46,792 nt of DNA, from positions 1 through 46,792 of the forward strand of contig CACWWC010000013.1 in NCBI GenBank assembly GCA_902764545.1, in the 5' to 3' direction. Origin of the DNA: an uncultured Erysipelotrichaceae bacterium. Lineage in GTDB: Bacteria; Bacillota_I; Bacilli_A; RF39; UBA660. A program made the translations under genes and the position numbers. The number at the start of each line of letters is the position of its first letter. The first letter of the stretch is position 1. The notes under the pieces were generated by a model, which saw nothing but the letters and a program-made list of their open reading frames with translations, was not told where the DNA came from and did not search any database. Of the stretch, positions 5,508 through 46,792 are shown piece after piece.

Positions 5508-5933
5508 CTACTTCCCCTCAAAATTATAAGCATACACTATTTCATCATCTGCCTTATTAATTCCACCTGACTTTTCATAACACTTACATGCAGAAACATT
5601 GCTTTTATTTGTTATTAAAAACATTTTATAACATCCAGTATTTTTTATATAATCACAAATATATGAAATTAATCCAGTACCAATACCTTTTCCTTGATAA
5701 TTAAGCATTACATCAATAGCATGAAGATAAAAGGTTTTTCTACCATCTGGTTTTAATAATATGTAACCAAAAGCAAAACCTAAAATTTTATTATTTTCTT
5801 TTGCAATAAAACCATAAGTATTAACTTCATTAACAAATTTTTTTAAATCATCTAAATTATATTCAGTATTTTCATCATCAATAAAATCTAGCATTAAATT
5901 TAAATCCTGTTCTTCTAATCTCTTATATTCCAT
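5508..5933 (-). CDS. GNAT family N-acetyltransferase, AAC(3)-I-like
   Basis: A 141-residue single GNAT domain. The acetyl-CoA pyrophosphate loop is QGKGIGTG at residues 80-87, preceded by a FYLHAIDV strand and followed by SNVSACKCYEKSG, which is typical of motif B. The overall layout resembles gentamicin 3-N-acetyltransferases (AAC(3)-I), but also many uncharacterised small-molecule GNATs. It is the first gene of the operon 5933-3628 and has a good ribosome site (AGAAGGTG) seven bases before the ATG. Upstream lies the 40-bp hairpin array that separates it from the Fic gene. Confidence 0.8.
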   Translation of the reverse strand: MEYKRLEEQDLNLMLDFIDDENTEYNLDDLKKFVNEVNTYGFIAKENNKILGFAFGYILLKPDGRKTFYLHAIDVMLNYQGKGIGTGLISYICDYIKNTGCYKMFLITNKSNVSACKCYEKSGGINKADDEIVYAYNFEGK

Positions 5934-5980
5934 TTTATAACACCTTCTATTTGTTAATTGTTTAAAGATTAAAATTTTCT

Positions 5981-6092
5981 TAAAACAAATTTTTTTGATT
6001 TTTCGTTTTATATTTTTTTATAGAACGAATTTTTTGGTTTTTTCGTTCTATAATTTTTTTTAAAACATTTTTTTGATTTTTTTCGTTTTATA
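5981..6092. repeat. Three tandem 40-bp hairpin repeats
   Basis: Units begin at exactly 5981, 6021 and 6061. Each starts TARAAC, runs through a T-rich core with GATT or GGTT, and ends CGTTYTATA, so each can fold into a hairpin with a homopolymeric loop. In units 1 and 3 the arms are TAAAAC/GTTTTA; in unit 2 they are TAGAACGAA/TTCGTTCTA. The A-to-G change in one arm is matched by a T-to-C change in the other, so pairing is preserved. The array starts three bases after the Fic stop codon, in the 3' leader of that operon. On the minus transcript the loops are A-rich and no U-tract follows, so it is not an ordinary terminator. Confidence 0.85.
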
Positions 6093-6094
6093 AA

Positions 6095-7234
6095 TTATTC
6101 TGATAAAAATATCTCTACATACTCAGAAAATACAAATATTTGATTTCTACTATATCCAGTTGTTTCTTTTATTATATTAGCAGACTTCAATTCATTTATT
6201 ACACCATTAACAGTAGATTCTGGCATTTCTAATGCTTCAGATATTTTTTTTCTTGATGAATATGGTTCATCATAAAAGTAATCTATAATTTTTTTAGCAT
6301 TATCATATTTAACTTTTAAGTCTGATATTTGAACATCTACTTTTTTAGTAAGTCCTACAACTTTTTTAAATTTTTCTTTTGCGATTTTAGCTGTTTCTAT
6401 TATTCCCTCTAAGAAAAACTTTATCCATCCAATAATATCATTTTTAACTCTAACATCATTTAATTTTTGATAATATAAGTCTCTATTTTTTTCAAAAAAG
6501 AAGGATATGTATAAACATGGATTATCTAAATATTTTTTACTTTGAAGATATAAAGGAATTAATAATCTACCAATTCTTCCATTACCATCTAAAAATGGAT
6601 GTATTGATTCAAATTGATAATGAATTATAGCTATTTTTATTAAATCTGGTGTATCTATTTCTTCATTATTAATAAATAACTCTAAATCTTTTAAGCAATC
6701 AGATAAATCTTCTACTAATGGTGGCACATAAGCTGCAGTTGATGGCATTGTTCCACCTATCCAGTTTTGTGATATTCTAAATTCTCCTGGTGTCTTTTTC
6801 TCTCCTCTGACACCATTTAATAATATTTTATGTATTTCTCTAAATAATCTGTTACATACTGGAAAACCTTCATTAATTCTAGCAATACCATAATTAGTTG
6901 CTTTAACATAATTTTGAACTTCTTCCCAATCATCTCTTTTTTCTGGATTTATATCTTGTAAATCTGATAAATCTTCTTCTATTGTTGTTCTTGTTCCTTC
7001 AATTCTACTAGATTTATTAGCTTCAATTTTTACATGCATCTTAATATATAAATCAACATTAGGAAGTAGTAATGAATAAGCATTTAATTCACCAATTTGT
7101 CTATTTGCTTCTGCAAGTAAAGAATCTAATTTTGTATCATCCCAACCCCAGTTATAATTAATATTACTTGGTAAAAATGCTTTATATCCTGTTCCTTGCT
7201 TATATTCTCCGGCTTTATATTCTTCTAACTTCAT
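6095..7234 (-). CDS. Fic family protein (class II, with inhibitory helix and C-terminal winged helix)
   Basis: Fic proteins usually transfer AMP from ATP to a hydroxyl side chain of a target protein. The catalytic motif HPFLDGNGRIGR is complete (about residues 212-223). The N-terminal inhibitory signature SxxxEG (SSRIEG, about 75-80) is present, so activity is probably self-restrained (class II). A C-terminal segment (EPYSSRKKISEALEMPEST) looks like a winged helix, as in many stand-alone Fic regulators. I chose the second of two close ATGs (7234), because the AAAGGAG site is only one base from the first. It follows the XRE gene by 18 bases and is probably co-transcribed with it. The target is unknown. 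Confidence 0.87.
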   Translation of the reverse strand: MKLEEYKAGEYKQGTGYKAFLPSNINYNWGWDDTKLDSLLAEANRQIGELNAYSLLLPNVDLYIKMHVKIEANKSSRIEGTRTTIEEDLSDLQDINPEKRDDWEEVQNYVKATNYGIARINEGFPVCNRLFREIHKILLNGVRGEKKTPGEFRISQNWIGGTMPSTAAYVPPLVEDLSDCLKDLELFINNEEIDTPDLIKIAIIHYQFESIHPFLDGNGRIGRLLIPLYLQSKKYLDNPCLYISFFFEKNRDLYYQKLNDVRVKNDIIGWIKFFLEGIIETAKIAKEKFKKVVGLTKKVDVQISDLKVKYDNAKKIIDYFYDEPYSSRKKISEALEMPESTVNGVINELKSANIIKETTGYSRNQIFVFSEYVEIFLSE

Positions 7235-7252
7235 AATCATTCTCCTTTCACT

Positions 7253-7774
7253 CTAGTTTTTCTTTGGTAATTTACTATAATCGTATTTATGTTCTGCAAA
7301 TTCTAATTCATCAAAAGCGTACTGAATATCTTCTATTGCTTTATCAATTGTATATAAGCTATCTTTATTATCTTTCATTATTTGTAAGTGTTCTATTGTA
7401 TAGAATAGTTTTTGTCTTGCATCACTTACTTTTTTTCTTTTTTCAGTATCGAAATCTAATAATTTTCTTTGAGATTCTTCATAATTTTTAATCATGTCTT
7501 TTAAATCTTTACTAGATTTATTTGCATATTTATCTTTAGAAAAATAGAAAAGCATTTCATCATAACCTGCAACTTTTAATAATTTTTGCAATGACATATC
7601 TAAAGTTTCAGCAATTTTTCGTAGATCATCAATATCTACTTTTTTTATTTTCCCATTAATTAAATCATTTAAAGTACTTCTACTTATACCAGTTAATTTA
7701 GCAAGTTCTCTTTGAGAAATACCTTTTTCAACTCTTGCAGATTCAATTAAATTTTTAAGTTCTTCTGAGTTCAT
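7253..7774 (-). CDS. XRE-family transcriptional regulator
   Basis: A 173-residue protein with an N-terminal lambda-repressor-like helix-turn-helix (about residues 8-65, core GISQRELAKLTGISRSTLND). A second helical, charged half may be for dimerisation or for binding the Fic partner. It is divergent from the mobile-element operon, and its promoter overlaps operator repeats of the form TTGTC-N10-GACAA. It is therefore the likely repressor of both directions, like phage and ICE immunity regulators. With the Fic gene right behind, the pair also has the layout of a toxin-antitoxin or regulated effector module. Confidence 0.85.
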   Translation of the reverse strand: MNSEELKNLIESARVEKGISQRELAKLTGISRSTLNDLINGKIKKVDIDDLRKIAETLDMSLQKLLKVAGYDEMLFYFSKDKYANKSSKDLKDMIKNYEESQRKLLDFDTEKRKKVSDARQKLFYTIEHLQIMKDNKDSLYTIDKAIEDIQYAFDELEFAEHKYDYSKLPKKN

Positions 7775-44343: not shown

Positions 44344-44646
44344 ATGAAACGTTTTAATGAACTAGATGAAGGATTTATATGTGAACATTGTAATAAAGAA
44401 GTAAAACCATTAATATACTCATCAAGAGATCATTGTCCATACTGTCTATATTCAAAACACGTAGACATTAATCCAGGAGATAGACAAAATCTATGTAAAG
44501 GATTATTAAAACCCATAGAAATAGAAAAATATAAAGACACATATAAAATAATATATAAATGTGAAAAATGTAATAAAACACATAAAAATATCATCGCAAA
44601 AGACGATGATATGAATGAAATAATAAAAGTATCTCAAATAAACTAG
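44344..44646 (+). CDS. RNHCP-domain zinc-ribbon protein
   Basis: 100 residues. CEHCNKEVKP, SSRDHCPYCLYSKHVDINPGD and C-KGLLKPI, then CEKCNKTHKN near the C-terminus match the RNHCP family (named for its Arg-Asn-His-Cys-Pro motif; here Arg-Asp-His-Cys-Pro). Four CxxC pairs would bind two zinc ions. The function of the family is not known; a nucleic-acid-binding role is likely. Its stop TAG shares the CTAG at 44643-44646 with the convergent reverse transcriptase stop. Confidence 0.9.
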   Translation: MKRFNELDEGFICEHCNKEVKPLIYSSRDHCPYCLYSKHVDINPGDRQNLCKGLLKPIEIEKYKDTYKIIYKCEKCNKTHKNIIAKDDDMNEIIKVSQIN

Positions 44647-45674
44647 ATTTTTCTTAAATATTCAATATATTTAAAACTATCCCCTTGATTTATATACGCA
44701 ATACATAATTTAATCATCCTTCGTATTTTTCTTCTTTGTCTATATATTGTATCCTTACATGGTATTAATATAACATTTCCATTCTCATTAATATTATACT
44801 TCCACTTACAATATTTAAAATATTTTCTTATAGGTACAATCTTTGTCTTTTTCTTGTTTACTTTAATATGCAAACTATCACATATTAAATAATAGTCATT
44901 CAATACTTTAACCGCTTCATCATAATCACCACATATAAAGAAAGTATCATCCATATACCTCTCTATCATATAACCTTTAGACTGAAGAAAATGATCAAGC
45001 CTATTTGGTATAATACAAGCTTCTTTTTGAGCAATTTCAACTCCAAGAGCAATTCCCTTACCAATAAACAAATAGTCTTCTATTATCTTAATTAATCTAT
45101 CATTATAAATATATCTTTTATGAATACTATGTATTACATCATGAGAACAATTTTCAAAAAATTTAGAAAAATCAATTAAAACTACATATCCATTTAATCC
45201 ATATTTTCTATTCCACTTTTTTAGTTTTGATTTTACTCTTTTAATTGCAAATCCAAAACCTTTTCCTTTGGTACTTGCTCCATTATCATATATCATATGA
45301 GGTGTATATATAGGAAGTAGTATTTCATTTGAAATTACCTTATGAACAAGTCTATCTGTTATATGAGGTGCATCAATATTCCTAATTTTTCCTCTTTCAT
45401 TTATTTTAAATTTATAAGTCTTTCCAACAACATAAGTTCCATTTTTTATATTTCTACAAGTATTAGCAATATTAGTAAACATGTGAAGTTGAAAATTCTG
45501 TGTTGATTTTTTATATCTAACACCATTGCAACATTTATCAGCATAATACATTACCTTATGAAAACAAAATATTTCTTCAATATTTCCATATTTATTGCTT
45601 CTCTCAATAGTCTTTAATTCTCTTAATCTCTTTCTTCTTAAGTATCTTGCATCTTTTCTTTCTCTACTATTCAC
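44643..45674 (-). CDS. Reverse transcriptase of a diversity-generating retroelement
   Basis: 343 residues. It contains VVLIDFSKFFENCSHD (motif A, about 165-180), GIALGVEIAQKEACIIPNRLDH (about 207-228) and RYMDDTFFIC with the catalytic YMDD (about 240-243), then KVNKKKTKIVP. DGR enzymes carry LGxxxSQ at the second motif; here it is LGVEIAQ, with Ala for Ser. It copies the template repeat with adenine-directed errors. The start is GTG 45674: GGAGG sits six bases upstream, directly behind an intrinsic terminator, so the longer in-frame extension is not likely to be translated. It follows the template region and the Avd-like gene on the same strand. Confidence 0.88.
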   Translation of the reverse strand: MNSRERKDARYLRRKRLRELKTIERSNKYGNIEEIFCFHKVMYYADKCCNGVRYKKSTQNFQLHMFTNIANTCRNIKNGTYVVGKTYKFKINERGKIRNIDAPHITDRLVHKVISNEILLPIYTPHMIYDNGASTKGKGFGFAIKRVKSKLKKWNRKYGLNGYVVLIDFSKFFENCSHDVIHSIHKRYIYNDRLIKIIEDYLFIGKGIALGVEIAQKEACIIPNRLDHFLQSKGYMIERYMDDTFFICGDYDEAVKVLNDYYLICDSLHIKVNKKKTKIVPIRKYFKYCKWKYNINENGNVILIPCKDTIYRQRRKIRRMIKLCIAYINQGDSFKYIEYLRKI

Positions 45675-45684
45675 TAAAAACCTC

Positions 45685-45710
45685 CAAAAAAAGAGACGAA
45701 AAACCGTCTC
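45685..45710 (-). terminator. Terminator/attenuator between template RNA and reverse transcriptase
   Basis: Minus strand GAGACG/CGTCTC (45705-45710 with 45693-45698), followed by seven T and then the reverse transcriptase ribosome site. It would end most template-repeat transcripts before the enzyme gene. Confidence 0.8.
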
Positions 45711-46121
45711 AGTTTTGACCAATGTATAGCAAAATGAATGTTTAACTAGCTACATAGCTTTGTCCATGAAATTCAAAGCACTCATTCAAACTTTGAACCA
45801 TGCAAGAAGCGTCCGAACAAAGTCATCATTGATCTTCTTCAAGATATAAAACCTCAAGGAGAAACCAATCCTTCCTTTTATGAAGCAGTTTGAGGAGTTA
45901 TCACAAAACATCAACTCATTTAACCTGTCCTGCACATTATCCAGGAATCTGGAGCCAAACCGTTGTTAGTATTATTAGCATTATTGTTGTTCAAGTTACC
46001 ATAGTTAACATTACGGAAATTGTTGTTATTATTAGAATTGGCCGGACGCAACCACTGCACCCAAAAAGCTAAACTAACGGTAAGCACATAATTTTCATCG
46101 GTTTTCCTTATTCCAAAAATA
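45700..46121 (-). ncRNA. DGR template repeat (about 45930-46075) and spacer RNA
   Basis: On the minus strand about 46060-45945 reads, if translated, as WLRPANSNNNNNFRNVNYGN, then NLNNNNANNTNNGLAPDSW: 17 Asn (AAY) codons in 27 positions. An adenine-loaded repeat like this, between an avd-like gene and the reverse transcriptase, is the template repeat of a DGR. The 225 bases after it form the spacer, with CCTCAA/TTGAGG, TTCAAAGTTTGAA and ATGTAGC/GCTATACAT-type pairings, and end at the terminator. In the phage BPP-1 system the template and spacer form the functional RNA with Avd and the enzyme. The exact ends need the variable repeat, which is outside the window. Confidence 0.82.
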
Positions 46122-46685
46122 TTATTCAAATATAATTTGAAAATATTTTGAAACCAAAATTTTAATTATTTCTTCATCAGATATATTATCATAATCTCTT
46201 TTCTTATATTTTTTATTATCTGAATCAAGTACACCTTTTATGAGACTATACTGTTTTTCAAACATTGTACCTAATACTTCAAGTCTACCATCAAGCATCT
46301 TTGTAGCTTCAGAGTTCGTATAATTCTTACCATTTTTTCTTGAAAAACATTTTGAAGGGTTCATATATAATATTCTTATCGCATCCATCAATCTTTTTTC
46401 AAGAACTTGGAGATAAGCTCTAGACATTTTTAGGAGCCATCTTCTTGTTATGTAGTCTTCTACACTTTGAATATTTATACTATGTGCCATATTTACAAAA
46501 TCAGCTTGTTTACAAGCATATTCATCTATTGGTTGTTGGTATATTCTTGCCCATCTTGCAGATAACTTTGATGCAAGAATCATCACTTCTTTTTGAAGTT
46601 CATATGCATTGTCTACATAATCAAGACCACTTGGTAATCTTTTAAACAAGGTTACTGATTTATCAGTTGTATTATTATACATCAT
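46122..46685 (-). CDS. avd: Avd-like four-helix-bundle protein (DGR accessory)
   Basis: 187 residues, all helical: ELQKEVMILASKLSARWARI, then ACKQADFVNMAHSINIQSVE, RRWLLKMSRAYLQVLEKRLM and a fourth helix near EVLGTMFEKQYSLIKGV. This is the pattern of the accessory variability determinant, a pentameric basic barrel that binds the template RNA and the reverse transcriptase. The C-terminal extension (DSDNKKYKKRDYD) is longer than in phage Avd (128 residues). The ATG pair at 46680-46685 has no ribosome site; a good one (AAGGAGAGATAA) precedes a four-codon frame upstream (see the repeat entry). Confidence 0.8.
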   Translation of the reverse strand: MMYNNTTDKSVTLFKRLPSGLDYVDNAYELQKEVMILASKLSARWARIYQQPIDEYACKQADFVNMAHSINIQSVEDYITRRWLLKMSRAYLQVLEKRLMDAIRILYMNPSKCFSRKNGKNYTNSEATKMLDGRLEVLGTMFEKQYSLIKGVLDSDNKKYKKRDYDNISDEEIIKILVSKYFQIIFE

Positions 46686-46727: not shown

Positions 46728-46760
46728 ACACCATGAACTTTTTATGAAAGTTCATGGTGT
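46728..46760. terminator. Perfect 14-bp hairpin upstream of avd
   Basis: ACACCATGAACTTT/AAAGTTCATGGTGT (46728-46741 with 46747-46760), loop TTATG. The tail on the minus strand is TTAGTTTTG and on the plus strand is U-rich, so it probably ends a transcript from the gene beyond the window edge, perhaps the DGR target. No gene can be seen in 46708-46792. Confidence 0.65.
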
Positions 46761-46792
46761 ATTCTTATTTCTTTATTTTCAAATGACTAAAT

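Follow-up and report, generated by a model that had tools for sequence, protein, structure and literature searches.

Evidence for a host-chromosomal diversity-generating retroelement with a DUF6273 target in an uncultured member of the gut Bacilli

The right-hand end of this contig raises the question of whether a reverse transcriptase gene, an asparagine-rich stretch and a gene for a small helical protein together constitute a diversity-generating retroelement (DGR), the machinery that introduces random changes at adenines into the terminal part of a gene, and, if so, which gene is rewritten. The window, that is, the whole stretch of 46,792 nucleotides analyzed here, is the entire contig C13 of a metagenome-assembled genome (1.57 Mb, 45 contigs, 27% GC), and contig and window both end at 46792. 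The earlier note on this DNA had described a YMDD reverse transcriptase (RT), an Asn-codon-saturated stretch and a four-helix Avd-like gene, in the order avd, template, RT on one strand and with a hairpin upstream of avd, and had read them as the architecture of a DGR. All of these parts were found, with an RT-2 structured RNA in addition: avd, the template repeat (TR), the RNA and the RT gene follow one another in that order on the minus strand. From the parts and their order, the adenine specificity between template and target, the clade of the RT, the family of the RNA and the modeled fold of the accessory protein, we put the probability that the element is a host-chromosomal DGR at roughly 95%. 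The surrounding genes on C13 encode ScpA, ScpB, a HAD hydrolase and a Fic protein, the contig that carries the target (C37) has spoVAC/AD and nrdD, and no phage genes were seen among the neighbors of the DGR on C13 or on C37, a setting that argues for a chromosomal location. Complete DGRs can thereby be assigned to the chromosomes of gut Bacilli that are uncultured and have small genomes.

The TR core (WLRPANSNNNNNFRNVNYGNLNNNNANNTNNGLAP; positions 45949 to 46054, minus strand) has 37 adenines in 106 bases and was recognized both by its codon content and by an adenine-specific counterpart. With 17 AAY codons in 26, it is by far the densest such stretch in the window, where the runner-up across all frames is a 27-codon stretch with 10 (binomial P of about 9e-13 for the TR at 8% Asn). 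A BLAST search of the TR region against its own genome (G000) returned one strong second site, C37:10818-10927, in which the counterpart of the TR core (G000:C37:10819-10924) lies 79 bases from the end of the contig. Over these 106 bases, 24 of the 37 adenines are changed, compared with 4 of 69 other bases (Fisher p = 9.6e-11). The expectation that the variable target would lie outside the window, detectable as a near-copy altered at template adenines, is thus borne out within the same genome. This variable region (VR) forms the C terminus of a DUF6273 gene, and a search for further targets matching the 3' half of the TR returned C37 only. DUF6273 is a DGR target domain in the Faecalibacterium phages Roos, Pioen and Lelie (PMC11792537). 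As assembled, the target open reading frame is broken twice, once by a tandem repeat of 50 bases and again by another frame change; the gene may be dead, or the assembly may be wrong at this point. We infer surface display of the target and a role of the DGR in varying ligand binding. One relative's target has a type IV pilin-type N terminus (PF07963), and targets in this genome and genus have a TasA-like hydrophobic leader, a likeness seen by eye only, with no family model matching. A DGR target would carry its VR in a domain of the C-type lectin type; here, the AlphaFold model of the target was too poor to show such a fold (pLDDT 42) and was left unused, and a profile search of the target domain against the PDB gave no match.

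The gene avd (46122 to 46685, minus strand) encodes an accessory protein of 187 amino acids that is 59-66% identical to the product of the gene in the same position in five related DGR loci and matches PHROG 30516 (E = 3e-16), with no match in Pfam. Its AlphaFold model (pLDDT 82) is a helical bundle that aligns with Avd of BPP-1 (4dwl; 2.1 Å over 108 residues) and with chains of DGR ribonucleoproteins (8ub7/8ub8) at a Z score of 12.4 in both cases, a value within the range that helical bundles can reach by chance (about 13). Part of the weight is therefore borne by the conserved site beside the TR and RT, and on the model and this position together the accessory protein is assigned the Avd fold. 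The spacer between the TR and the RT gene (45697 to 45906, minus strand) matches Rfam family RT-2 (RF03077) over the full model length (83.8 bits, E = 5e-19). This family, reportedly introduced by Weinberg in 2017, occupies the same position in seven other Bacilli DGR loci and in four phage loci; it precedes the RT in Pioen, a Roseburia phage and two further phage contigs (E = 4e-34 to 3e-42). In BPP-1, that position is held by RF03022 (Phage_DGR). Among 193 genomes sampled from the host family, RT-2 scored above threshold in seven. RT-2 is probably a DGR spacer RNA, which would tie this Rfam family to the spacer of one DGR branch.

Nine related loci, all from uncultured gut Bacilli, were compared. 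Three of them are on contigs long enough to show the whole arrangement (L055, L057 and L061), and in each the target with its VR is followed by avd, the TR and the RT. From TR to VR, adenines are changed at 20 of 38 positions and other bases at 0 of 58 in L055, at 16 of 36 and 3 of 60 in L057, and at 15 of 36 and 2 of 60 in L061 (summed, 51 of 110 adenines and 5 of 178 other bases). Flanking sequences differ among the related loci, and the cassette therefore occupies different host sites. L061 also contains an exact 1.9-kb direct repeat (83-2004 and 5708-7629, 5,625 bases apart on a 7.7-kb contig) that includes the target and the start of avd and is an assembly artifact, a tandem copy or a small circle.

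The earlier note had suggested that the target might lie directly upstream of avd. These three relatives support that position, as does a remnant of the same element in the sister species G136; here, C37 and C13 share no overlap, and the adjacency has to be reconstructed from such comparisons. The remnant (L152; G136:C15:60500-66450, minus strand, first 850 bases) lies at a contig end and has a target VR followed successively by the hairpin CTCCGAACGGAAGTGAGGAC, by the window's avd-leader hairpin (ACACCATGAACTT ... AAGTTCATGGTGT, at 46728 to 46760, the hairpin already noticed upstream of avd), by the last part of avd and by a TR in which the 5' part is fused to the 3' end of a VR. Nothing is left of the body of avd, the spacer RNA or the RT, which marks the remnant as a deletion scar, and the variable end of a target gene adjoins it; in this sister species, the element was deleted and targets were kept. 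Because the scar holds on a single contig, with a hairpin between them, the counterparts of the end of C37 (CCAATACCGATA) and of the start of C13's strand, the adjacency of C37 and C13 is likely, and it is very probable that the C37 target sits immediately upstream of avd. A hairpin after the VR (CTCCGAACGNAAGTGAGGAC) is conserved in L055, L057, L059 and the G136 scar, and BPP-1 requires a hairpin in this place (PMC3240598). The motif is absent from this genome as assembled, as expected if it falls between C37 and C13, and presumably it lies in that gap. A simple hairpin score was also applied downstream of paralog VRs but was dropped, as it failed to recover the known hairpins.

Following the known mechanism of DGRs, we propose that the TR would be transcribed along with the RT-2 spacer RNA, that the RT and Avd would make cDNA from the TR with misincorporation at template adenines, and that this cDNA would replace the VR at the 3' end of the DUF6273 gene on C37. 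By this analogy, the DGR would be active. Alternatively, it may have decayed, so that the machinery is still recognizable while diversification has ended and the target has become a pseudogene. The broken target on C37, the four non-adenine differences between VR and TR, the scar of the same element in G136 and the lack of such an RT in most genomes of the genus would all fit this explanation, but neither the RT nor avd is disrupted or shortened, adenine specificity is still plain in the TR/VR pair, and frame breaks near contig ends in a multicopy family are typical assembly errors. We consider decay unlikely and favor a putatively active DGR.

The same genome has four more genes, on C30, C6, C16 and C39, that end in a TR-like stretch; a pattern search for a second TR serving them found none. 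Relative to the TR, their ends are enriched in adenine changes (p = 4e-4 to 1e-6) and have an NNY signature, together with 8-12 nonadenine changes and small indels. They have therefore not been written recently from this TR and are probably older or occasional targets. Near contig ends, target paralogs at C16:9180-9439, C30:95-400 and C37:9660-10941 are frame broken or lack the middle of the domain, representing either assembly collapse or real cassettes. Across the genus, PF19789 (DUF6273) was detected in 34 of 39 genomes, at up to 13 places in each, with an RT of any kind in 10 of the 39 and one of DGR type, judged by motif, in only about four. At four-fold codons, C or T makes up 95% of third bases in the variable ends of the four genes of this genome and 22% in the rest of them; in the 19 genus genes that were read fully, the corresponding values are 70-80% and 33-35% (p for the bias of variable ends, 1e-10 to 1e-26). 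We infer that the variable ends throughout the genus were written by DGRs, and the C/T content of four-fold codons offers a template-free test for genes that were once so written.

The extra NNY-rich DUF6273 ends could instead have arisen by ordinary diversifying selection or by recombination among paralogs, with no part played by DGRs. In keeping with this, no RT was found in the carriers G001 (96% complete), G023 (71%) and G026 (93%), the paralogs differ in their third bases, and the conserved post-VR hairpin follows only 1 of the 19 genus paralogs read. Yet selection on amino acids leaves the C/T bias at four-fold codons unexplained, and G136, which lacks an RT, contains a DGR scar. Such an origin is in our judgment quite improbable, although recombination of cassettes that DGRs had written is possible. 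Under DGR writing, the plain reading would be that DGRs have been gained and lost repeatedly and have left their targets behind, by analogy with Treponema denticola. A bolder version, which we offer tentatively and with the odds somewhat against it, is that DGRs visit the genus while each genome keeps a persistent library of up to 13 DGR-written surface genes, maybe reused or reshuffled without an RT. How DGR-made diversity is gained, lost and reused among the surface proteins of gut bacteria can now be tested directly. The genus also contains a second, different DGR (L113; G017:C21:15000-20000), in which a target with another variable C terminus is accompanied by an avd-like open reading frame and an RT that has LGNQTSQ and YMDD and is divided between two frames. 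At L120 (G002:C114) and L124 (G017:C25), RTs of equal score that contain IGAMTSQ and YMDD adjoin DUF6273 matches; they probably represent a third DGR type common to two species.

The RT gene (44643 to 45674, minus strand) begins with GTG after GGAGG and encodes 343 amino acids, including the motifs LGVEIAQ and YMDD, with matches to RVT_1 in Pfam (8e-11) and to PHROG 1423 (3e-53). The earlier note had proposed a tree as a check, and one was built from the RTs of the window and its Bacilli relatives together with those of phage DGRs, BPP-1, group II introns and retrons. The window RT falls within the DGR side (support 100/99), away from retrons and group II introns, in a Bacilli clade (100/100) whose sister is the Faecalibacterium phage Pioen plus one unannotated phage contig. 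A tree constrained to place the Bacilli RTs on the non-DGR side was 67 log units worse (AU test, p = 1e-6). This placement and the adenine-specific near-copy in the same genome together uphold the reading of the locus as a DGR. No relatives of the RT were confirmed in viral contigs. A group II intron or retron RT that merely adjoins an unrelated Asn-rich stretch is almost certainly not the explanation: the top NCBIfam match is a group II RT model (80.9 of 300 bits, far under the cutoff) and the PDB sequence matches carry group II and retron-type RT annotations, but the tree and the AU test, the adenine-specific VR, Avd, the RT-2 RNA and the gene order kept in relatives all oppose it, and the RT lies outside that clade with the motif LGVEIAQ, not QGxxxSP. 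The departure of LGVEIAQ from the hallmark LGxxxSQ had been thought to mark a separate branch, and the tree agrees: LGxEIAQ is present in all seven RTs of the 100/100 Bacilli clade. As Pioen has LGVEPSQ, these motifs suggest that the serine was probably lost on the Bacilli branch.

Three known systems come closest. One comprises the DGRs of the Faecalibacterium phages Pioen, Roos and Taranis, whose RTs are 41-42% identical to the window RT. Pioen is sister in the RT tree and has RT-2 RNA before its RT, and Roos and Pioen share the DUF6273 target (PMC11792537). These DGRs are phage borne, with LGVEPSQ (in Pioen) and a tail-type target, whereas the DGR described here is chromosomal, with LGVEIAQ and predicted surface targets. 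BPP-1 (mtd-avd-TR-brt) resembles it in the order target, avd, TR, RT (known here through relatives), in the Avd fold, in a structured RNA after the TR and in a hairpin after the VR (seen here in relatives), but has a distant RT, an RNA of family RF03022 and Mtd as its target in place of a DUF6273 protein. The DGR of T. denticola is likewise host resident, with several remote targets per genome, and isolates lacking the RT or TR keep leftover targets in a pattern of repeated gain and loss (PMC4891356). Its targets are spirochete lipoproteins, in contrast to the Bacilli DUF6273 proteins, which reach 13 copies per genome across the genus.

Variation was also seen in the templates of three close loci, L059, L060 and L063. 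Five of the six differences between their TRs fall at an adenine of one copy and run from A to T or G, as though the template itself had mutated; VR reads mixed into the assembly could account for them.
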